This document shows, one piece after another, positions 36,237-47,473 of a stretch of 64,000 nucleotides of DNA. Within the stretch, counting starts at the first letter, position 1. Every line of letters starts with the position of its first letter. Both the position numbers and the translations under genes were made by a program. The notes below the pieces were generated by a model that was given only the letters and a program-made list of their open reading frames with translations, was not told the DNA's origin and did no database searches. The DNA is from Teretinema zuelzerae (GTDB taxonomy: Bacteria > Spirochaetota > Spirochaetia > Treponematales > Treponemataceae), in assembly GCF_021021555.1 (NCBI RefSeq), contig NZ_JAINWA010000001.1, positions 1,364,001 to 1,428,000 of the forward strand, written 5' to 3'.

Positions 36237-38300
36237 TCAGCGGGAAGGGCGAACCCGGGAAATTTCCGAGAATATGGAGCCGCGGATGCGGCGCACCAGC
36301 AAGGCTTTTCCCAGGGAAACTTTTTCCTCGATTCCGTCGGGCTCGCGAATAAGCGTGAGAATGACGTCGCCGGTGCGCTTTTCCATGGACTCGGGGCGGC
36401 CGAGAATCGCCGAGCCCTCGGAACCGGAATCGGTTTCAATCTCCAGAAGGGAGCCGACGGCAAGCGCGTATTCCGCGATCTTTATCTTTCCGAGAAAATC
36501 CATTCCGCGGGCTTCCACTTTTTCCACGCGCACCGAATCCGGCACCAGCTGGGAAGGCGAGAGGATAATTCTCCGCTCTATGCGGGAGCGCAGAGCGTCC
36601 CGGCTGTCTTCGTCCATATCCATGTCTTCGAGCGCAAGCTTCAAATCTTCAGCATAGTCGGGCGGCAGCTCCGCCGCCTGTGCTGCCGGGGCCGAAGCTG
36701 AGCGAGAGAGGACCTGCTTCGACGCCGCGGAGGGGAACGGAAGGGAGTCGCGATGAGACTCCGGAGTCGAGAGTCCCGGGGCATCCAGGCCGGACGCCTC
36801 GAACGCCTCTGAAATTTCAGAGGCGTCGTTCACATCCAGAAGATACACTCCGGGCGCGAGAGTTTTCCTGATAAGGGCGGACAGGGCGGGCGTGTTCTCG
36901 AATAACGCGCGGCGGCTCTCGTCGACGCGGAGCACGTAGCCGTGATAGAGAGACACCGACGCATAGGCGCGAAACCAGTCCGCAATGCTGAAGGCGATGT
37001 TCTGGGGAAGGGGCTGCAGAGACTTCGCGGAAAAAAGGGCGGCGAGGCTCTCCGCGTTCTGCCCCTGCTCGAAGGCGGCCGCGCAAGAGCGCCGGGTAAG
37101 CTCGAAGTGGGCAAGCGTCTGTACGTCGCGCACCTCCAGAGCGGCGGCAGCGGGAAGCAGATCCCGCAGATGGATGCCGGGCATCACGGTTACTTCGAAG
37201 GTCGGAGAAATCAATATGCCGGACGAAGCGGGCTCGGCATCAGCGAGCGTCGCGAATGCGGGATTCACGCAATAGAGGCCGTCGTTTTCTGCGAGCAAAC
37301 CCAGATAGAGGGCGGATTGAACGAAATCCGAGCGGGAGGCTTCGTCGGCGGACAGGGATTCCTGCTCGCGGATCATCGAAGCGAAGCGGCCCTGGCGGTG
37401 CGCAACGGCGGAAGCCGAGGCGTTTTCGGAGAGAATAAAGGCAAGCCGCGCCAGGGACGACTTCCGGTAGCCGGCCCCGGGAGTCAACAGCTGAAGGAAT
37501 TCGACAAAGAACGAAGCCCGCTCGTGCATCGCGGCGCGGGAGGCCTTCCCGGCTCCGGCCGAAGCGAGCCAGGCGAGGCGGTCAAGGGGCGAAAGCTCCG
37601 CGAACTGCTCCCAGCGGGAACGCGACGGAATCAGCATCCCTTCCGACCGAACGAGAAGCCCCAGATTCTGGAACGCGAATACGATCATGTCGACCGAGCC
37701 GCGAACGGCGGCGAGCCGCGGAAACGAGGCGTCGAGGGCTTCGCGAGCCCGTTTGCGGAAGGTGCCGTCCATGCGGACGGCTTCGCCCTGATGCAGGAAA
37801 AAACTGTAGAGAGCCGCGAATGTCAGGTCGTCGAGAGGGGGGTCGGCGGGCGCGGCGAAAGAAAGAGTTTCGGGCGAAAGCAGGCAGCCGAGGCCGAGCC
37901 GGGGGCGGAGCGCATCCTCGAGCAGCGGGTTTAGGGCGTACCGCCGCAAATCGGCGTCTGCGCGGCGATAAATCAGAAGCCGCTCCTCAAGGTTCAGAAT
38001 GCGCTCGTATATTTCCGGAAAAGACCTGCCGCCGGCGAACAGGGACACCATCTTCTGCTGGCTCGGATTGGGAAGCAGCTCGACAGCCGAGAGAATCATC
38101 AGATCGAAATCGTCCAACAGGGACAGAATGCGGTCGCGGTTTTCCTTCCGCCTGAGGAAGGAAGAAAGTTCTTCTATCAAACGCTGTTTATTGAACGGCG
38201 TCTTGATGACGCCCAGATACATGCGCATCAGATCGAAAAAATGCTGATCCGTCAAACGGACCAGAGCCTCCCGCCACTCGACGACCGCTTCAGGATTCAT
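36237..38300 (-). CDS. XPB-helicase partner protein (helicase-associated winged-helix family)
   Basis: 687 residues with no ATPase motifs. The N-terminal helical part (KTPFNKQRLIEELSSFLRRKENRD) is followed by winged-helix-like segments. The C-terminal ADWFRAYASVSLYHGYVLRVD, then LIRKTLAPGVYLLDV, resembles the Helicase_C_3/XPB-associated family that sits beside XPB in mycobacteria (Rv0862c next to Rv0861c, from memory). Its ATG directly abuts the XPB stop with no gap, so the two are co-translated and probably form a complex in DNA repair or transcription-coupled remodelling. A Ser/Pro/Ala-rich linker (about 495-545) divides the protein. Confidence 0.7.
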   Translation of the reverse strand: MNPEAVVEWREALVRLTDQHFFDLMRMYLGVIKTPFNKQRLIEELSSFLRRKENRDRILSLLDDFDLMILSAVELLPNPSQQKMVSLFAGGRSFPEIYERILNLEERLLIYRRADADLRRYALNPLLEDALRPRLGLGCLLSPETLSFAAPADPPLDDLTFAALYSFFLHQGEAVRMDGTFRKRAREALDASFPRLAAVRGSVDMIVFAFQNLGLLVRSEGMLIPSRSRWEQFAELSPLDRLAWLASAGAGKASRAAMHERASFFVEFLQLLTPGAGYRKSSLARLAFILSENASASAVAHRQGRFASMIREQESLSADEASRSDFVQSALYLGLLAENDGLYCVNPAFATLADAEPASSGILISPTFEVTVMPGIHLRDLLPAAAALEVRDVQTLAHFELTRRSCAAAFEQGQNAESLAALFSAKSLQPLPQNIAFSIADWFRAYASVSLYHGYVLRVDESRRALFENTPALSALIRKTLAPGVYLLDVNDASEISEAFEASGLDAPGLSTPESHRDSLPFPSAASKQVLSRSASAPAAQAAELPPDYAEDLKLALEDMDMDEDSRDALRSRIERRIILSPSQLVPDSVRVEKVEARGMDFLGKIKIAEYALAVGSLLEIETDSGSEGSAILGRPESMEKRTGDVILTLIREPDGIEEKVSLGKALLVRRIRGSIFSEISRVRPSR

Positions 38301-40037
38301 TTACGCGCCTCCGCGGATGATCAGCCCGGAGTCTTCTTCCCAGCGGATGATCGAATATTCATAGCCCTGCTCGGCGAGGAATTTCTGGCGGTTCGCCGCA
38401 AATTCCTCTTCCACGGACTGGCCGGTAACGATGGTATAAAAATGCGAATCCTTTTCCTTGGGGCGCAGAATCCGGCCCAAGCGCTGCGCCTCTTCCTGAC
38501 GGCTGCCGAAGGTTCCGGAAATCTGAATCGCGACCGAGGCGTCCGGCAGATCGATCGCGAAGTTTGCGACCTTCGATACTACCAGCGTTTTAATCTCGCC
38601 CTTTTTGAACCGCCCGTAAATTACGTCGCGCTCCGCATTCGGCGTCTTGCCGGTGATGATAGGCGCGCCCAGTTCGGCGGCGAGCTTTTCAAGCTGGTCG
38701 ATGTACTGGCCGATGACCAGCTTCGAATCGTCGGCGTGATGGCCCAGCAAAGCCCTGATCACCGAGAGCTTGGCGGGGTTTTCGCTTGCGATGCGGTATT
38801 TCTGCCGCTGGTTCGCGACGGCGTATTCGATTTCCTTGGACGGATCGAGCTCAACCCGAATCTCGGTGCACAGCGCGGTCGCGATCCAGCCCTGCCCCTC
38901 CAGATCCTTCCAGGGCACGTCGTACCGCTTCGGCCCGACCAGGCTGAACACGTCTCCCTCGCAGCCGTCCTCGCGCACCAGGGTCGCGGTGAGTCCGACC
39001 CGCCGAACGGTCTGCAGCTCGGCGGTTACCCGGAACACGGGAGCGGGCAGCAGATGCACCTCGTCGTAGATGATGAGCCCCCAGGGCCGCTCGCGGAACA
39101 GGCTGAAGTGCGGAAAGGGCGCGTCTTTTTCGGGCCGCCAGGTGAGTATCTGATAGGTCGCGACCGTTACCGGACGCACGGTTTTCACGTCGCCGGTATA
39201 TTCGCCGATGTCCGCCGGATCGAGATCCGTCTTGTCCAAGAGCTCGCCGATCCACTGGTGGACGGCGGCGACGTTGGTAGTGAGAATGAGGGTGTTGGTT
39301 TTAAGCATGGACATGACGGTCATGCCGACGACGGTTTTACCGGCTCCGCAGGGAAGCACTATGGTTCCGAAGCCGGTGCCCGGCCCGCGGTCGCCGACCA
39401 ACGCCTCGGCCGCTTTTTTCTGATAATCGCGGATCGTCAGCGGCTTCCCCGATCGGCACGCGGGAGCAAGAGCGATGTCGAGCGGCTCTCCGTCCCTCAG
39501 CGGCGCCTCGTCCTTTACCGGCCAGCCCAGCCGGAGAAGCTCCTGCTTTACCGTTCCCCGGTGCAGCACTCCGAGACGGAAGCGGAACGCCCCGTCCGGG
39601 TCGGGCAACAGATATTTCGCCATGACGGCCGAGGCGGCGAGTTCGCGGAATATAAGGGGCGAATCGGTGACGAGCCAGAGAAACTCCGGGAGGGCGGCCT
39701 CGCCTTCCCCGGTCTCCGCAGGAGCGTCGGGTATCATGCGGATTTTGCCGAACCGGCTCATCGTCTCGATGATCCATTTGTTCACCGCCGTCGGAACCGG
39801 AAAGCGCGCAAGGCTTTCCAGAATTCCGGCGATCTGGTCCGGGGTGAAGCCGGCGCTCGCCGCGTTCCAGAGCGAAAGGGGCGTAATGCGGTAGGTGTGC
39901 AGATGTTCGGGGGATTTTTCCAGTTCGGCGAAGGGGATGAGCGCGGAACGCGCCTCTTCCGAACGCGGAGCGTGAACGTCCAGGAGTATGGAGCGGTCTC
40001 CCTGTATGATGAGCGGGTTCGTTGGGTCTATCGGCAT
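38301..40037 (-). CDS. XPB/Ssl2-type DNA helicase (SF2)
   Basis: 578 residues. An N-terminal damage-recognition-like domain (about 1-195) leads to helicase domain 1 with Walker A LPCGAGKT, motif Ia LTTNVAAVHQW, DEVH box IIYDEVHLLP and motif III LTATLVRED, which includes the RED element typical of XPB. Domain 2 carries VVSKVANFAIDLPDASVAIQ (as pieces) and motif VI QRLGRILRPK. Bacterial XPB unwinds DNA 3' to 5' and is scattered across phyla. No Shine-Dalgarno sequence is visible. Its stop joins the partner gene, making a helicase-partner pair at the end of a six-gene leftward run. Confidence 0.9.
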   Translation of the reverse strand: MPIDPTNPLIIQGDRSILLDVHAPRSEEARSALIPFAELEKSPEHLHTYRITPLSLWNAASAGFTPDQIAGILESLARFPVPTAVNKWIIETMSRFGKIRMIPDAPAETGEGEAALPEFLWLVTDSPLIFRELAASAVMAKYLLPDPDGAFRFRLGVLHRGTVKQELLRLGWPVKDEAPLRDGEPLDIALAPACRSGKPLTIRDYQKKAAEALVGDRGPGTGFGTIVLPCGAGKTVVGMTVMSMLKTNTLILTTNVAAVHQWIGELLDKTDLDPADIGEYTGDVKTVRPVTVATYQILTWRPEKDAPFPHFSLFRERPWGLIIYDEVHLLPAPVFRVTAELQTVRRVGLTATLVREDGCEGDVFSLVGPKRYDVPWKDLEGQGWIATALCTEIRVELDPSKEIEYAVANQRQKYRIASENPAKLSVIRALLGHHADDSKLVIGQYIDQLEKLAAELGAPIITGKTPNAERDVIYGRFKKGEIKTLVVSKVANFAIDLPDASVAIQISGTFGSRQEEAQRLGRILRPKEKDSHFYTIVTGQSVEEEFAANRQKFLAEQGYEYSIIRWEEDSGLIIRGGA

Positions 40038-40101
40038 AACAGGCTATTGTATCCGCCCCGAGCCCGCGAGGGCAAGGGGATTACAGAAGTTAGTATCTTT
40101 T

Positions 40102-41139
40102 CTATTGATACATGATGAGATAGGGCCGAGGATCGAGGCTGAGAACTTCCTGGGGCGTCATGAGCGGCTGGTCCCAGCCGGCGCCGGCTACGGTCGGCTT
40201 GAGAAAGAGCTTGAAAGATTTCAGCGGCATGTTCGCGGCAAGGGCGTTGAACGCGTACGTATTTTTTTTCAGGGAGGGAGAACCGAAACCGTCAGCGCAG
40301 TGGATGAGCTGAACCAGGTCGAAATCGCTTCTTACCGCGGGACGGTTCGATATCATCTTCGGCTTGAACTGATGAACGACCAGCATGCGCCGTCCCGGCA
40401 AGCCGTGTTCGATCATGTAGTCTTCCATCATTTTCTGCGCCCGGTTCAATTCTTCGGCGGTAACGTACCCTATTTCCTGCATCGGCTTTTCGGTGCGCCA
40501 CTCAGGATCCAGGGCGAGATGCACGTTCGGATATTTCAGCCAGGGAAGGAGCTTTTTCATCGCGTCGTCGACCGAGTACCGTCCGATCTGATGATCGAGG
40601 TAGACGTACCAGCCGCGCGCCGCCGCGAATTCGATGTACGAGCGCGTTACCGCGTCCTGAAGAATTCCGATCTTGCCTTCCGGCCACACGGTTCCGTAGA
40701 TAATGTAGAACGCGGGAATAATGCCCCGGATTCCGTTCGCCTCGTCGTAGGCCTGAACGAACTCCTTCATGATCGGCTCGATTCCCTCGAGCGAATGCTG
40801 GCCCAGAAGCCCCATGGAGCGGGCTCCCGGCTTCCCGTAAATCGCGAATATATCGTTGTTCAACAGAACCGATTGCAGACGCGGCGACTCGGCTCTCAGC
40901 GACTCCGCTTCCTCGCGGGTAAGAACGTAGTCTCCCGAAAGTCCCGCCGACGACGCGATTTCAACCGCGCCGGCCTGGGTCAGCGCATGAGGAAACAGAG
41001 GACTGAAGCGGGGCGCGTTCTGAGGCCGATTCATTCCGTCCAACAACACGACTCCGCTCTCAGCCGCCAAAGCGCCGGCAACGCACAATAAAAAAAGCAC
41101 CGCGATCCTGAACCGGCGGGGCTGCGTACACATGTTCAT
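40102..41139 (-). CDS. Secreted protein of unknown function, conserved family
   Basis: 345 residues from the ATG preceded by GGGAGGAG; the longer frame to 41313 overlaps the neighbouring gene. A signal peptide (about 1-26, FRIAVLFLLCVAGALAAES) is visible. Repeated strand-helix patterns (IPAFYIIYGTVWP, GWYVYLDHQIGRYS, NVHLALDPEWR, RMLVVHQFKPKMI, FDLVQLIHCADGFGSP) suggest a TIM-barrel-like fold. I recall similar 'LDPEW...VHQF' motifs in actinobacterial proteins of unknown function; this needs a search. No catalytic residues can be named. It stands between a Pro-rich exported protein and XPB. Confidence 0.6.
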   Translation of the reverse strand: MNMCTQPRRFRIAVLFLLCVAGALAAESGVVLLDGMNRPQNAPRFSPLFPHALTQAGAVEIASSAGLSGDYVLTREEAESLRAESPRLQSVLLNNDIFAIYGKPGARSMGLLGQHSLEGIEPIMKEFVQAYDEANGIRGIIPAFYIIYGTVWPEGKIGILQDAVTRSYIEFAAARGWYVYLDHQIGRYSVDDAMKKLLPWLKYPNVHLALDPEWRTEKPMQEIGYVTAEELNRAQKMMEDYMIEHGLPGRRMLVVHQFKPKMISNRPAVRSDFDLVQLIHCADGFGSPSLKKNTYAFNALAANMPLKSFKLFLKPTVAGAGWDQPLMTPQEVLSLDPRPYLIMYQ

Positions 41140-41171
41140 ATCCGCTCCTCCCTTATATATCGGAAGGGCGT

Positions 41172-42038
41172 TCAGGGAACTGTAGAAGAAGGGAGGCGGA
41201 TCGCTATATCTATCGCCGGTTTTACGTCCGCCGCATCGGCCTTGGCGCGTCGAAACACGATCAGGTCCCCGTATTGAACTCCGTCCAGGGGAGACTCCTG
41301 AGCAAGGGTCCAAAATATCGACGGGGAATTCGAGTCAGCCTGCGCGACATCGACGAACAGCGACCATTTTTCATCTCCTGTTTCAGAACGGGAGGCATGT
41401 GGCTTGCACACGAAATACACGATTTCCATACTTCCTGCGCCCCCGGAGAGCCTGCGTTCCGCGCTCACCAGGAAGGAGCCGCTTTTCGCGGGCGCGGAGG
41501 ATACGTGAGAACTTAACGCCTGCAGATAATCGCGCCCGCCGATCGAAAGCCGCTCAAGACAGGCCCGCTCCGGTCGTTGCGCCCCGGAACCTGCGGGCGT
41601 CGCGCCGGAATCAGCCTTCGCCGGGGCTTCTGATCTCCGGGCGTCCTCGAGCTCGGCCTGCTGCTTTTCCATCAGCTCGACCAGCCGGAGAAGGGCCGCG
41701 TCGTCCGATTGCTTCGGAAGGGCGCCCTCGATTCCAAGCAAGGACTCAAGGCCGCCGAAGAGCCCCGCTCCCGAAAGGAGTCCCTCAGCGCTTGAGGGAA
41801 GACTGCTCGCCTTGGGCGAAGCTTTTTTCGGGGCGGCCTCAGCCTCGGCGCTGGTATTCCCGGAATAGCCGGCAGCAGGTGGCGAGGGAGGCGCAGGAGG
41901 AGAGGGAACGGCCGGCAGCGTAATCGGAGGAATCGCGGGCACCGAAACAGAAGGGATCGTTTGAGCCGCCGCGAAGGCCGCGAACGCGCAATAGAACGCA
42001 GCGGAGAAGAAAACGCACAGCGCTTTGTTGGTGCCCAT
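41172..42038 (-). CDS. Pro/Ala-rich exported protein of unknown function
   Basis: 288 residues. A signal peptide (ALCVFFSAAFYCAFAAFAAA) is followed by a proline-rich stretch (about 27-57) and a low-complexity Ala/Ser region. A short coiled coil (ALLRLVELMEKQQAELEDAR) precedes a compact C-terminal domain of about 130 residues (LERLSIGGRDYLQALSSH, GSMEIVYFVCKPH, GVQYGDLIVFRRAKAD). I do not recognise the family. The layout suggests a periplasmic or wall-spanning protein with one folded domain. GGAGG lies 7 bases before the ATG, and gaps of 20 and 32 bases place it in the rsmE-XPB run. Confidence 0.6.
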   Translation of the reverse strand: MGTNKALCVFFSAAFYCAFAAFAAAQTIPSVSVPAIPPITLPAVPSPPAPPSPPAAGYSGNTSAEAEAAPKKASPKASSLPSSAEGLLSGAGLFGGLESLLGIEGALPKQSDDAALLRLVELMEKQQAELEDARRSEAPAKADSGATPAGSGAQRPERACLERLSIGGRDYLQALSSHVSSAPAKSGSFLVSAERRLSGGAGSMEIVYFVCKPHASRSETGDEKWSLFVDVAQADSNSPSIFWTLAQESPLDGVQYGDLIVFRRAKADAADVKPAIDIAIRLPSSTVP

Positions 42039-42058
42039 TCGATGTCCTCCTTTCCGGC

Positions 42059-42844
42059 TTACATGTTCGAAAGGCTCTGTTCGACCTGGTCAAGGCGGGC
42101 CGTCAACATGGCGATCGTCTTTTCAAGCCGTTTCTTTTCTTTTTCCAGACGGTCCTTCGGGTCCTCGTCCTCGATCTTTTTCGCGAGGTTGACCTTCACC
42201 GCGTCGGGGCTTCTGCGCGCCATGAACTGCTCCTCGGCGGCCTGCCGCTTTTCCGGAGTGCTCTGGGCGGCGACGATCTTCATCGTCTCGTAGCCGAGCG
42301 CAGGGTTCACGTTGAGAGAACTCACCCGGACGGCCGTCTTCGCGGCGGCGCGGGGAAGGCACAACACCCGGTCGATATAATCCTCGTAGCGGACCCCGGC
42401 GTCCCGGCACAGGGCATGCGCCTTCGCGAGCAGGCGCCCCAGCTCGCTCATCAGCCGTCCGTTTTCAGCCAGATACTTCGACTTGATCTCCTCGGTGAGC
42501 TTGTTGAGCTCGTCCGATTTTTCAAGCCCGATCTGATAGAGCCCGTCCCGCTCGGCCTTTTCCAGAAGGCCGTGGAAGCGCGCCCAGAAGGATGCGGTAT
42601 GGCTCCTGCCGGAGCGCAGGGGGCCGTCGGCCTCGCACTGCAAATGGTGGGCGTATTCGTGGATCGCCGTATAAATGAGCTGGTTTTCGTCGTCGAAGTT
42701 CTTGTTGTGCAGGAGGATTTCCCGCGTGTCGGGCTTATAGAGGCCGTTCACCTTTTTGCTTGTTTTACCGGTCATGGTGACGGTAAAATCAAGCTCGGTA
42801 TTCTGAATTTTCAGCAAGAGTTCTTTTATCTGATCCTGATTCAT
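42059..42844 (-). CDS. Putative zinc metallopeptidase with HEYAHHL motif and coiled-coil tail
   Basis: 261 residues from the ATG with GGGAGG 7 bases upstream. Residues about 1-85 look like a small SprT/wss-type protease: TGKTSKKVNGLYKPDTREI, then LIYTAIHEYAHHLQCEADG with the HEXXH zinc site. A helical middle and a charged coiled coil (EDPKDRLEKEKKRLEKTIAM) fill the rest. It has no signal peptide, so it is cytosolic. The ATG overlaps the rsmE stop by 4 bases (ATGA), indicating tight coupling with the ribosomal methyltransferase. Whether it is an active protease is unproven; a third zinc ligand cannot be picked with certainty. Confidence 0.65.
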   Translation of the reverse strand: MNQDQIKELLLKIQNTELDFTVTMTGKTSKKVNGLYKPDTREILLHNKNFDDENQLIYTAIHEYAHHLQCEADGPLRSGRSHTASFWARFHGLLEKAERDGLYQIGLEKSDELNKLTEEIKSKYLAENGRLMSELGRLLAKAHALCRDAGVRYEDYIDRVLCLPRAAAKTAVRVSSLNVNPALGYETMKIVAAQSTPEKRQAAEEQFMARRSPDAVKVNLAKKIEDEDPKDRLEKEKKRLEKTIAMLTARLDQVEQSLSNM

Positions 42845-43575
42845 CGATTTTCCTCCCAAAAGCCCGCTCCGGCAAGGGCGAGCGCGATAGCCGCCGTCGC
42901 GGCCGTTTCAGTCCGCAAGATTCGCGGACCGAGCGAGTACGTACGGTAACCGGACTCGGCGAAAAAGGCCCGTTCACCTGCCGTCCATCCGCGTTCGCTT
43001 CCGATGGCCATGACCAGCGGATTTTCCGCCGTTATCCCGGCAAGCGGCGCCTTCAAAAGGCTTCCCGCGGAGCCTGCCGTATCGAGGAGAATCCCCGCGG
43101 AGGGAAAGGCCGAATACAAGGCGACAGCCTCTTTCAGCGTATCGGTCATCTCCAGCCGTGGAATCGCCGTCCCGCCGGCCTGCACGCAGCCTTCCTCCAG
43201 GGCGGCCGCCGCGGCTCCCCTGTCGACCAGGGTGGAGTCGCGGTAGGATTTCTCGCCCAGCTCCGTCCCCGTCAGCGTAACGGACGAAACGCCGAGACTG
43301 GCGACGTCGCGGAGAAGCCGCTTGAGCTGGATCGGACGGGGAAAGCCGATGATCAGATGCGCCGGAAACAGCGGCCGCATCGGACGCTCAGGGGTAAAAT
43401 CGAAGCAGAGGCCCTGCTCGTCCAGAGACCTGATGAAGGCGGTTCCTTCCGGGCCGTTTCTCATGCCGCACCGGAACGAGTCGCCTGCGTTCTTGCGGAG
43501 AATTTTCTTGATATGCAGATAGCGGGGATCGCGGGGAGGGAAGAACCCGTCGCCGTCGAAAAGAATGATATTCAT
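42841..43575 (-). CDS. rsmE: 16S rRNA (uracil1498-N3)-methyltransferase
   Basis: 244 residues, the usual size; the frame is open further upstream but MNIILFDGDG matches the family's N-terminus. It methylates U1498 of 16S rRNA using SAM. A PUA-like N-terminal domain (RDPRYLHIKKILRKNAGD) is followed by a SPOUT trefoil-knot domain with LIIGFPRPIQLKRLLRDVASLG, PLVMAIGSERGWTAGER and the knot motif LGPRILRTETAA. No strong Shine-Dalgarno sequence is visible before this ATG. It is the first gene of the leftward run and is divergent from the aminopeptidase, 61 bases away. Confidence 0.93.
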   Translation of the reverse strand: MNIILFDGDGFFPPRDPRYLHIKKILRKNAGDSFRCGMRNGPEGTAFIRSLDEQGLCFDFTPERPMRPLFPAHLIIGFPRPIQLKRLLRDVASLGVSSVTLTGTELGEKSYRDSTLVDRGAAAAALEEGCVQAGGTAIPRLEMTDTLKEAVALYSAFPSAGILLDTAGSAGSLLKAPLAGITAENPLVMAIGSERGWTAGERAFFAESGYRTYSLGPRILRTETAATAAIALALAGAGFWEENR

Positions 43576-43636
43576 GACAGGCGGCAGTATATCAGAGAGA
43601 TTTGACTTTTCATACCGAGGAGCATACATTAAACCC

Positions 43637-44859: not shown

Positions 44860-46257
44860 ATGAGCGAGTCATTACCGGTGCAGGCTCTCGTAGCCAGGCA
44901 GCGTTCGTTTTTCAACGCAGGAAACACCAGATCCGTCGCCTTCAGGAAGGAGGCCCTGGACCGTTTATCCCGGGCAATTCGCGAAAGAGAATCCCAAATT
45001 CTCGAAGCGGTGCATGCCGATCTGGGAAAATCGGATTTCGAGGCATTCACCACCGAGGTCGTCCTCGTCCTCGGCGAAATCGAACTCATGAAGCGGAATC
45101 TCCGCAAGTGGTCGAAAACCGTTTCGAAGAACGCCGGATTATTCAATTTTCCCGCGAAAGAGCGGATGATCAAAGATCCCCACGGAGTGTGCCTCATCAT
45201 GTCGCCCTGGAACTATCCGTTCCAGCTTACACTCATGCCGCTGGTCGGCGCGATCGGCGCGGGGAACACCGCGATAGTTAAGCCGTCGGCCTACTCGCCG
45301 GCGACCTCGGCCCTGATCGCCCGCATGATCGACGAAATTTTTCCGAGCGAATACATCGCCGTCGTGGAAGGCGGCCGTTCGGTGAATCAGGACCTCCTGG
45401 AACAGCATTTCGACTACATATTTTTCACCGGCAGCGTTGAGGTAGGCAAGCTTGTCATGCAGAGCGCCTCGAGAAACCTCACCCCCGTCACCCTCGAGCT
45501 CGGCGGAAAAAGCCCCTGCATCGTAGACCGCAGCGCGGACATCGACCTCGCGGCGAAACGGGCCGTGTGGGGGAAATGCATAAACTCCGGCCAAACCTGC
45601 GTTGCTCCGGACTACTTTCTGGTACACCGCGACGTCAAGGACAGCTTCATAGAAGCTTCAAAGAAATGGATCGTCCGGTTTTACGGAGAAAAACCCGAAG
45701 CGAACCCCGAGTTCCCGCATATCGTCAACCGCCATCATTTTACCCGGCTCTCAACGCTCATAACAGAAGCGGGAGCTTCCGGCAGAAACGCTCAACTCGC
45801 GTGGGGAGGCCAGACCGACGAAGAGACTATGCGGATCAGGCCCGCCATAATCGACAACGCGGACTGGAACGACCCGATCATGCAGGAGGAAATCTTCGGA
45901 CCGATCATGCCGATCATTTCGTGGGACAGGGAAGACGAAATACGCGAGCGCATCCTTTCCAGGCCGCGACCGCTAGCCCTCTATATTTTTTCCAAAGACA
46001 GGGCCCAGATCAAACGATTCACCGAGGGTATCCCCTTCGGCGGCGGCTGCGTAAACGACACTATCATGCACGTGGCGACCCACCAGATTCCGTTCGGCGG
46101 AACCGGCGCGAGCGGAATGGGCGGGTATCACGGTAAAACGAGTTTCGATGCTTTCAGCAGGATAAAAGGAATCGTGGATCGCTCCACGCTGATAGACGTG
46201 CCGCTGCGGTACGCGCCCTTCGCGGGGAAATACCGCCGCTGGAGGCCGTTCCTATAA
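44860..46257 (+). CDS. Aldehyde dehydrogenase, class 3-like
   Basis: 465 residues. Signatures are SPWNYPFQLTLMPLVGAIGAGN (split), IVKPSAYSP for cofactor binding, FFTGSVEVGK, the general-base glutamate in LELGGKSPC, and nucleophile C247 in NSGQTCVAPD. The C-terminal GGYHGKTSFDAFS and YRRWRPFL are typical of the ALDH3/coniferyl-aldehyde group, which oxidises medium- or long-chain and aromatic aldehydes with NAD(P). It is cytosolic; no membrane tail is present. AAGGAG precedes the ATG. Its end overlaps luxS by 6 bases on the other strand. The physiological aldehyde is unknown. Confidence 0.93.
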   Translation: MSESLPVQALVARQRSFFNAGNTRSVAFRKEALDRLSRAIRERESQILEAVHADLGKSDFEAFTTEVVLVLGEIELMKRNLRKWSKTVSKNAGLFNFPAKERMIKDPHGVCLIMSPWNYPFQLTLMPLVGAIGAGNTAIVKPSAYSPATSALIARMIDEIFPSEYIAVVEGGRSVNQDLLEQHFDYIFFTGSVEVGKLVMQSASRNLTPVTLELGGKSPCIVDRSADIDLAAKRAVWGKCINSGQTCVAPDYFLVHRDVKDSFIEASKKWIVRFYGEKPEANPEFPHIVNRHHFTRLSTLITEAGASGRNAQLAWGGQTDEETMRIRPAIIDNADWNDPIMQEEIFGPIMPIISWDREDEIRERILSRPRPLALYIFSKDRAQIKRFTEGIPFGGGCVNDTIMHVATHQIPFGGTGASGMGGYHGKTSFDAFSRIKGIVDRSTLIDVPLRYAPFAGKYRRWRPFL

Positions 46258-46740
46258 GGAGGAATCGGGGTAGCAGGACCAGCCCTTTCGGTCGATTCCC
46301 GCCACCCATTTCGCGGCCCACACGCGGGCGCCGGCAAGGTCGTGCTCCTTCCAGTTGCCGCACATGACCGGATCGACTCCGGGAACAGCCTCGGAGTCGG
46401 GCCAGGCGGCTACTTTGGACAGAACAGCCCGAAGCGCCTTCGCGGCGGCCTCTTCGCCGGGCTCGCCGAACACGGCCAGATAAAAGCCCGTTCTGCAGCC
46501 CATCGGGGACAGGTCTATGACTCCGTCGATTTCATCGCGGATATATTCGGCCATCAAATGTTCAAGCGTATGCAGGGCGCCCATCGGGATTGCCTCTTCG
46601 TTCGGCTGGCAGAACCGCACGTCGAATTTGGTGACGATATCTCCCTTGGGGCCGGTTTTCTTGCCGGCGAGGCGGACGTAGGGCGCCCGCACCTTCGTAT
46701 GATCCAGGCTGAAACTTTCAACATTGCGCGCTTCTTTCAT
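46252..46740 (-). CDS. luxS: S-ribosylhomocysteine lyase
   Basis: 162 residues. It splits S-ribosylhomocysteine to homocysteine and DPD, the precursor of autoinducer-2. The metal site is H57-T-L-E60-H61 (HTLEH) plus C127 in CGNWKEHD, and the catalytic cysteine is C82 in GCRTGFY. It lies 13 bases downstream of mtnN, so the operon carries both steps of S-adenosylhomocysteine recycling. The activated methyl cycle explains the pair without requiring quorum signalling. The gene ends inside the convergent aldehyde dehydrogenase gene. Confidence 0.96.
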   Translation of the reverse strand: MKEARNVESFSLDHTKVRAPYVRLAGKKTGPKGDIVTKFDVRFCQPNEEAIPMGALHTLEHLMAEYIRDEIDGVIDLSPMGCRTGFYLAVFGEPGEEAAAKALRAVLSKVAAWPDSEAVPGVDPVMCGNWKEHDLAGARVWAAKWVAGIDRKGWSCYPDSSL

Positions 46741-46753
46741 CTTCTTATCTTCC

Positions 46754-47473
46754 TTATTGATGCTTCACAAAATCGATAACGACGGCGGCGCTCCGATGCG
46801 AGGCCTGGCGGGAAAAATCCGCGTAGGACATGTCGGCCTCGTGTCCGGCGAGATCCGAAATGCTGCGGATGATTACGAAGGGAGTCCCGTTCGCGACGCA
46901 CGCCTGGGCAACGGCGCCGCCTTCCATTTCCACGCATGCCGGAGAAAAGTGGGAGACGATTCGGTCCCGCGCCGCCGGATTGGATATAAAAGCGTCGCCG
47001 GTAGCGATTCGTCCGGGAATCATGCGGGACGGCGTTTCGAACCGCGGGGAAACGCGGCTGAAAGCGGCAAGGGCTTTATCGCGCATCGACTGATCGGCCT
47101 TGAAAAAGGGGCTTTCCGTTCCGGGAATCTGCCCAGCCGCGTATCCGAAGGGAGTCGTATCGAAGTCATGCTGCACGGCGTCGGTACAAACGACCATATC
47201 AAGCACGTTGAGCCCTTCGGCAAGGCCGCCGGCAGAGCCCGTGTTCACGATCGCGTCCACGCCGAAGTCGCAGATCAGCACCTGGGCGCAGAGGGCCGCG
47301 TTGACCTTTCCCACGCCGCAGCACACGACGACGACCGGCTTTCCGTCAATAAAGCCCTGATGAAACTCGAGGTTCGCCCTCCGGCGCACATCGACCGGCT
47401 TTCCCGACGCTTCAAGCTCGCGGTACAGCAGTTCTACTTCCTGCTTTTCCGCTCCGATTATTCCGATTTTCAT
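46754..47473 (-). CDS. mtnN: 5'-methylthioadenosine/S-adenosylhomocysteine nucleosidase
   Basis: 239 residues beginning MKIGIIGA, as in the well-studied enzyme. Catalytic residues are E12 in the first helix (KQEVELL), the glutamate in VEMEGGAVAQ, and D in SISDLAGHEAD, which protonates N7. It removes adenine from S-adenosylhomocysteine and methylthioadenosine, giving the LuxS substrate. It is the first gene of the mtnN-luxS pair and lies 33 bases after the hybrid kinase stop on the same strand, so read-through from the kinase gene is possible. Confidence 0.95.
   Translation of the reverse strand: MKIGIIGAEKQEVELLYRELEASGKPVDVRRRANLEFHQGFIDGKPVVVVCCGVGKVNAALCAQVLICDFGVDAIVNTGSAGGLAEGLNVLDMVVCTDAVQHDFDTTPFGYAAGQIPGTESPFFKADQSMRDKALAAFSRVSPRFETPSRMIPGRIATGDAFISNPAARDRIVSHFSPACVEMEGGAVAQACVANGTPFVIIRSISDLAGHEADMSYADFSRQASHRSAAVVIDFVKHQ

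Follow-up and report, generated by a model that had tools for sequence, protein, structure and literature searches.

XPB and a p52-like neighbor in Teretinema zuelzerae as a likely bacterial equivalent of the XPB/p52 arm of TFIIH

In a stretch of 64,000 nucleotides from the spirochaete Teretinema zuelzerae (contig NZ_JAINWA010000001.1, positions 1,364,001 to 1,428,000; hereafter the window), six open reading frames follow one another leftward, separated from rsmE to the last gene by -4, 20, 32, 64 and 0 nucleotides, just as the initial annotation had described them. The run passes from rsmE through a HEXXH protein and two exported proteins to an XPB/ERCC3-type helicase and, touching it, a protein that we call the partner (Table 1). 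Over residues 8-563 the helicase matches the NCBIfam equivalog family NF045503, ‘DNA repair helicase XPB’, with 837.5 bits against a cut-off of 610. Among solved chains it reaches full-length yeast and human XPB at E 4e-80 to 4e-72, the archaeal XPB chains being more distant (E 6e-37 at best). The sole Pfam family of the partner is PF13625 ‘Helicase_C_3’ (residues 377-462, 36.9 bits, cut-off 34.2); it has no NCBIfam family, and a phmmer search of the Protein Data Bank (PDB) with the partner alone returned no match. The overlooked point of this locus is the p52-like nature of the partner, which is supported by its predicted structure and by the sequence of one of its domains, the clutch.

An AlphaFold2 model of the partner, built with 63 aligned partners (predicted local distance difference test score, pLDDT, 88.6; predicted TM-score 0.85), was compared by Foldseek with 350,542 PDB chains. 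All 19 matches at E≤0.001 were p52/Tfb2, with a best E of 2.2e-9 and 330-560 aligned columns; next came XPB chains over 124-183 columns, and then WYL proteins. The chains 8ebt_D, 7o4i_2, 7zs9_2, 7k01_2 and 6trs_A are named p52/Tfb2, or stand in entries so listed, and the remaining ones were taken as p52/Tfb2 from chain letters, lengths and titles. In the predicted structure three winged-helix domains are followed by the clutch, in the order known from p52. VIA-align superposes the proteins colinearly, placing p52 residues 145-400 (7nvv) on model residues 149-448 (Z 12.3, 206 residues, root-mean-square deviation (rmsd) 7.5) and Tfb2 residues 17-451 (7zs9) on 43-449 (Z 11.1, 317 residues, rmsd 16.1). 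The agreement seen in the model is one of domain content and order only, not of a rigid whole. Because the shared clutch might drive the match to p52, the winged-helix fragment (residues 1-358) was also folded alone (pLDDT 91.2). Ranks 1-11 of its Foldseek matches were again all p52/Tfb2 (E 2.9e-4 to 2.6e-2), with an unrelated chain at rank 12. VIA-align was not used as proof for this fragment, because its rows there were mostly single-domain repressors.

Three profiles carry the comparison of sequences: one of 17 spirochaete partners, a narrow one (A3) of the window partner and 62 Treponema-type partners, non-redundant at 80% from 77 of at least 660 residues, and a broad one (A4) of 21 partners spanning five phyla (spirochaetes, Deinococcus, Paenibacillus, one cyanobacterium and two actinobacteria). 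With the 17-member profile the best PDB matches were human p52 (E 2.4e-5) and yeast Tfb2 (0.0027); the five best were all p52/Tfb2, and no XPB appeared at E≤10. The broad profile found human p52 (2.6e-8), Chaetomium Tfb2 (8.8e-7), XPB (2.2e-6), yeast Tfb2 (0.0017) and Tfb5 (0.02), and 18 of its 20 PDB matches were subunits of TFIIH. When the p52 clutch, represented by three sequences, was aligned with the partner clutch, hhalign gave 97.6% (score 64) for the broad, 95.4% (48) for the 17-member and 91.7% (39) for the narrow profile; against the N-terminal domain of bacterial XPB the p52 clutch gave 89.1% (38). Partner clutch, p52 clutch and XPB N-terminal domain are thus all related by sequence. 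A search of 149 whole genomes of the phylum with Pfam Tfb2 (PF03849) gave matches at E≤0.1 in 28 genomes, at 29 places in total. The partner gene contains at least 21 of these places; one falls in a lone partner-like frame (G035), two in frames of partner size, so assigned by size only (G125, G148), two at XPB (G147; another frame in G045) and three elsewhere (G000, G009, G025); the match in G009 was discounted, as it lies in an unrelated frame of 1041 residues. Of 14 control genomes, three respond to the same search (E. coli, C. glutamicum and S. acidocaldarius), none over the cut-off.

The C-terminal domain of the partner is predicted to have a WYL-like fold. The eleven best WYL rows in VIA-align have Z 8.9 to 10.2 and rmsd 2.2 to 3.7 over 75-82 residues, among them PafBC (Z 10.2, 79 residues, rmsd 2.6) and DriD bound to single-stranded DNA (Z 10.0, 75 residues, rmsd 2.5), a small margin over Sm and Hfq barrels, which reach Z 8 to 9. 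Pfam WYL (PF13280) does not match the window partner, and in one relative (L128) it scores 15.7 bits, below its cut-off of 21.8. The WYL proteins that would share this fold with the partner at Z about 9 to 10 (PafBC, DriD, CapW, BrxR) are mostly transcription regulators by entry title, whereas the partner has a clutch and adjoins a helicase gene.

The module that follows the clutch resembles the DRD of XPB (hhalign 79.2%) and, more weakly, p8/Tfb5 (40.5% in the broad profile, 4.2% in the narrow one); it is the whole-partner broad profile that finds Tfb5 at E 0.02. A protein of about 100 residues with a basic, low-complexity N-terminal part is encoded between XPB and the partner on three Deinococcus plasmids (L034 5759-6088, L119 2675-2974, L120 2522-2869). 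It aligns with the post-clutch module at 93.6% over 62 columns in the broad profile, one of whose members is a Deinococcus partner, and at 60.1% in the narrow one; against XPB DRD, XPB N-terminal domain, clutch and p8 hhalign gave 0.2% or less (p8 0.1%). Judged by these alignments, three consecutive genes of Deinococcus may specify XPB, the module as a separate protein and a p52-like protein, and the term p8-like for the small protein would rest on its likeness to the module, not on a direct match to p8.

XPB and the partner form a conserved pair, as had been proposed at the outset. A scan for relatives with an alignment of 11 partners returned 270, of which the best 80 were kept, all spirochaetes by record title and mostly Treponema. 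XPB lies directly upstream of the partner on the same strand, with a gap of at most 150 bases, in 69 of these 80 loci, many of the pairs overlapping or touching; among the other 11, XPB is differently placed in five and not found within the available DNA in six. In one locus (L070, 4776-6869 and the next gene) XPB and partner are convergent and 35 bases apart, and in two others (L061 and L064) they lie 2.7 and 8.2 kb apart on the same strand. The adjacency exceeds chance. Across the phylum PF13625 is present in 123 of 149 genomes and the window partner has a match in 46; within the class the two genes adjoin in 14 of 19 genomes, the exceptions being G019, G031, G056, G126 and G096. XPB distances and partner distances are correlated (Mantel r 0.864, 66 pairs, reached by 0 of 2000 permutations), with a mean identity of 71% for XPB and 37% for the partner.

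Other phyla were sampled through the XPB-carrying records of a plasmid collection. In Paenibacillus the two genes overlap, XPB coming first; the three Deinococcus loci keep the order of the window with the small gene in between; in the cyanobacterium Gloeocapsopsis the partner stands one base before XPB (PF13625 31.5 bits, below the 34.2 cut-off). In Arthrobacter it precedes XPB by ten bases, in Tsukamurella it lies upstream of XPB with five genes between, and in Actinomyces the two genes are divergent with a small gene between them. The initial annotation had likened the pair to the mycobacterial arrangement and had suggested either transfer or ancient conservation. Mycobacterial XPB (Ercc3, Rv0861c) does belong to the same XPB family, and actinobacterial partners share PF13625; in the three actinobacteria inspected gene by gene the pair departs from the window in both order and spacing, and on the differing order we rejected the gain of a mycobacterial cassette by transfer. 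Adjacency in several gene orders favors a long-standing linkage. We take Rv0862c to be the neighbor of Rv0861c. Among the annotated genes of two haloarchaeal plasmid XPB regions there was no adjoining archaeal partner, and that candidate was dropped.

The start of XPB suggests a boundary within the run. In 48 of 62 loci a TANAAT box stands no more than 20 nucleotides from the XPB start, its most frequent distances being 8 and 11 nucleotides. Two control windows located further upstream contain such a box in 3 of 62 loci each, and shuffled sequences in 3.7. Counted were the XPB loci with a recognizable start motif and 60 nucleotides upstream; the chosen start falls within the gene in a few of them, and the box lies further up in L053, L059 and L076. 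In the control set of 23 partner starts the box occurs once. In the window a Shine-Dalgarno-like stretch precedes the HEXXH gene, both exported genes and the partner, and none is found at the XPB start. By the same test such a stretch occurs at 1 of 62 XPB starts and at 2 of 23 partner starts, and because partner starts show it so rarely as well, its absence is not special to XPB. These signals suggest a near-leaderless XPB start and a separate XPB-partner unit, and the pair is probably transcribed on its own. rsmE also has a -10-like TATACT 10 nucleotides before its ATG and no Shine-Dalgarno stretch, so near-leaderless starts may be common in the lineage of the window genome.

Our results favor the interpretation, which we consider likely, that the last two genes of the run encode a two-protein equivalent, in bacteria, of the arm that XPB and p52 form in TFIIH. 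In the human complex, the clutch of p52 and the N-terminal domain of XPB are homologues that dimerize pseudo-symmetrically; p52 also stimulates the XPB ATPase, and p52 and p8 have been proposed to arrange the helicase cassette (PMC6422496). Mutations at the XPB-p52 interface detach XPB (PMC9557730). By analogy, the partner clutch would pair with the N-terminal domain of XPB as a pseudo-symmetric dimer, and the post-clutch module would, in the manner of p52 and p8, help to keep the helicase lobes of XPB arranged for activity. The winged-helix array could be an arm that attaches XPB to DNA or to another protein, perhaps RNA polymerase, and the WYL-like domain might sense single-stranded DNA or damage. 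XPB Thr119, a trichothiodystrophy mutation site at a residue common to p52 (PMC6422496), aligns with Thr402 of the partner (threonine in 16 of 21 broad-profile and 32 of 63 narrow-profile members) and with Thr52 of bacterial XPB (60 of 80).

Like p52/Tfb2 (GTF2H4), which belongs with XPB/Ssl2 and p8/Tfb5, the partner is predicted to consist of a winged-helix array and then a clutch homologous to the XPB N-terminal domain; it is encoded next to XPB, and its post-clutch module weakly resembles p8/Tfb5. Unlike p52, the partner is bacterial, has a WYL-like C-terminus and an unrecognizable winged-helix sequence, and stays below the Pfam Tfb2 cut-off, and the module resembling p8 is fused into it, a separate copy being encoded in the three Deinococcus. 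Archaeal XPB also has a dedicated protein partner, Bax1, a nuclease related to XPG whose contacts with XPB are to its thumb and HD2 (PMC13024598); a nuclease partner of the Bax1 type was rejected here, as no nuclease family is among the listed domain matches of the partner. M. tuberculosis without ercc3 was more sensitive to rifampin under starvation, a phenotype that another screen did not see (PMC10534295), and this possibly hints at a link to transcription.

The interpretation should be viewed with some caution, since a number of results weigh against it. Against p52 the full model has low TM-scores (0.13-0.23 by query, with rmsd 13-26, for 19 matches), as has the winged-helix fragment (0.23-0.26, eleven matches), for which VIA-align ranks single winged-helix repressors (Z up to 8.6) above p52 (7.4 to 8.0). 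The 63-member narrow profile puts p52 first at E 1.4 only. The partner clutch matches the XPB N-terminal domain (98.3%, score 74) no less closely than it matches p52, and when narrow profiles are compared like for like the p52 clutch scores no higher against the partner (39) than against XPB (38), so that clutch scores alone do not place the partner nearer p52 than XPB. In the winged-helix part hhalign gave at most 10% to p52, which is no signal at the sequence level, and sequence homology between partner and p52 could be shown for the clutch alone. NCBIfam XPB matches 7 of 17 partners and Pfam Tfb2 3 of 17. The PF03849 cut-off of 34.5 was passed in none of the 149 genomes (best place 28.9 bits), and in the genome of the window itself the search did not reach the partner; because the cut-off was not passed, we label the protein p52-like and not a member of PF03849. 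Among six mutated contact residues of p52 (E310, R314, Y316, Y318, R337, F338), F338 alone fits the broad profile and none agrees with the window partner. The other four hhalign comparisons with p8 gave 0.9% or less.

The pairing has its counter-evidence as well. In the 58 spirochaete genomes in which both genes could be placed, by a hand tally among the matches listed that counts pairs on different contigs as non-adjacent, 25 have the genes adjacent and 33 do not; across the phylum the pair is thus separated in most genomes with both genes placed, the outcome that the initial annotation had named as refuting its reading, while in the 80 nearest loci it is not. The Mantel correlation includes shared species history. 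In one family of 22 genomes (f15) each genome has a single PF13625 match, which is XPB, and the three loci inspected (L141, L142, L143) have no partner beside it; a hidden partner at these loci was rejected from the sizes of the neighbors and from phmmer with the window partner. At the same three loci a protein of about 230 residues, probably a membrane protein, precedes XPB. Clutch homology, the architecture of the predicted model, the conserved pairing and the conserved promoter-like box are what the analysis shows; the complex and all four steps of the mechanism are inferred.

These points bear on two other explanations of the partner. It could be a bacterial regulator of the winged-helix/WYL type with a captured copy of the N-terminal domain of XPB, in which case its likeness to p52 would be convergent, because both winged-helix proteins carry the same domain, and it would still pair with XPB through the captured part. 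Clutch and module together do align best with the N-terminal domain and DRD of XPB (hhalign 98.8% over 152 columns), on which VIA-align places model residues 358-515 with Z 13.1 (153 residues, rmsd 3.5), and the silence of the winged-helix sequence, the near-equal narrow-profile scores of the p52 clutch and the home of WYL domains in bacterial regulators all fit a capture. Against a capture stand the winged-helix half, which without any clutch still ranks p52/Tfb2 at positions 1-11 among 350,542 chains, the 17-member profile, with its five leading p52/Tfb2 matches and no XPB at E≤10, and the broad profile, in which p52 stands ahead of XPB; we judge this origin unlikely. The other possibility is that XPB acts alone and is linked to its neighbor by history only. 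Mycobacterial XPB by itself is a DNA-dependent ATPase and unwinds DNA in vitro (PMC3353954), and the family with XPB and no visible partner agrees with such independence. This explanation has to contend with 69 adjacent pairs in 80 loci, many overlapping or touching, with adjacency in several phyla and in differing orders, and with homologous docking domains in the two proteins, and we regard it as very unlikely.

A further explanation concerns the run as a whole, in which the initial annotation had noted a link of the XPB pair to exported proteins and a peptidase and had left it unexplained. The six genes would then form a single operon serving a common purpose, such as the repair of DNA-protein crosslinks by a SprT-like protease, the helicase pair and envelope proteins. 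The gaps between the genes are short, the HEXXH protein is weakly like SprT-like proteases, and the gene order is repeated in three loci (L040, L041 and L053). Yet a comparison restricted to loci with 6.5 kb or more of DNA ahead of the partner (49 loci) finds the genes of rsmE, the HEXXH protein and the 345-residue exported protein together upstream in four (the same three and L049), and all four upstream genes in three; two loci with shorter upstream DNA (L039, L042) show part of the run. The HEXXH gene occurs in 54 of 60 genomes of the family, yet of the 11 genomes in which it and the partner could both be placed, 10 have the two genes on separate contigs or over 60 kb apart, the window genome being the exception. 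Given the retention of order in 4 of 49 loci and the conserved promoter-like box before XPB, we rejected the six-gene operon, which we find scarcely credible, and the proposed functional tie to exported proteins and peptidase is unsupported. What is conserved at the core is XPB with its partner, and the four genes upstream are neighbors that do not belong to it.

Table 1. Features of the XPB-partner locus and the run upstream of it (positions in the window).
Feature	Position	Strand	Basis or remark
p52/Tfb2-like partner of XPB, 687 residues	36237..38300	-	AlphaFold2 model and Foldseek
Three winged-helix domains of partner, residues 61-355	37236..38120	-	boundaries from model
Clutch domain of partner, residues 358-447	36960..37229	-	PF13625
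Module after clutch, residues 449-515	36756..36956	-	like XPB DRD, more weakly p8/Tfb5
WYL-like C-terminal domain of partner, residues 600-680	36261..36503	-	
XPB/ERCC3-type helicase, 578 residues	38301..40037	-	NF045503
XPB N-terminal domain, residues 9-103, predicted partner docking surface	39729..40013	-	PF13625 E 1.1e-28
XPB promoter-like site TTGCCC-18-TACAAT	40046..40075	-	ends 8 nucleotides before ATG
Exported protein, 345 residues	40102..41139	-	
Exported protein, 288 residues	41172..42038	-	upstream of XPB in close relatives only
HEXXH protein, 261 residues, SprT-like at best	42059..42844	-	without evident signal peptide
rsmE, 16S rRNA U1498 methyltransferase	42841..43575	-	TIGR00046 100.6 bits, cut-off 41
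Promoter-like site before rsmE, ATGAAA-16-TATACT	43586..43613	-	consensus match only

The HEXXH protein carries the motif HEYAHHL and, further on, HTASFW. Its match to the SprT-like family PF10263 (E 0.0039, 17.5 bits) does not reach the cut-off of 25.6, and a match to DUF6782 (E 0.00083) is likewise below cut-off. The genome of the window holds three further copies at 41% identity (C1:1555355-1556110, C2:9631-10386 and C1:518713-519468); two of these have identical scores on different contigs and are perhaps part of a repeated or mobile element. The 345-residue exported protein has no Pfam family, its best NCBIfam match is no better than E 0.097, and it is rare, being found in 14 of 149 genomes of the phylum. 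By coordinates its gene adjoins the partner on the far side in three distant spirochaetes (G014, G026 and G045, of which G026 was read directly), and in some Treponema-type loci (L047, L052, L054) it lies 1.6 to 2.0 kb downstream of the partner. We regard this recurring association as a partial link. Elsewhere in the window (46252-47473), two adjoining leftward genes resemble by eye what we take to be luxS and an MTA/SAH nucleosidase gene.

A 2012 paper reported that homologues of p44 and p52 were not found in bacteria and argued from this that XPB there likely works independently of a TFIIH-like complex (PMC3353954), and a March 2026 review still calls the role of bacterial XPB elusive (PMC13024598). 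No later report of a bacterial p52 was found in searches of an open-access library; since subscription journals and preprints were outside the scope of that search, the priority of the p52-like finding is uncertain. A p52-like protein encoded beside XPB, with a docking domain of the same kind, offers a direct test of the role of bacterial XPB, and the pair would provide a small two-protein system for the control of XPB by p52. The kind of domain that XPB and the partner share is also one that carries human disease mutations, as at Thr119 of XPB.

In conclusion, the presented data bear on the origin of TFIIH. A broader proposal, which we put forward only tentatively, is that bacteria carry a minimal TFIIH-like machine for opening DNA, made up of XPB, a p52-like arm and a p8-like piece, the latter fused into the partner and separate in Deinococcus; it would open DNA at stalled RNA polymerase or at damage, with the WYL-like domain reading single-stranded DNA. 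If this is true, the XPB/p52/p8 module would be older than eukaryotic TFIIH, or would have been shared before it arose.

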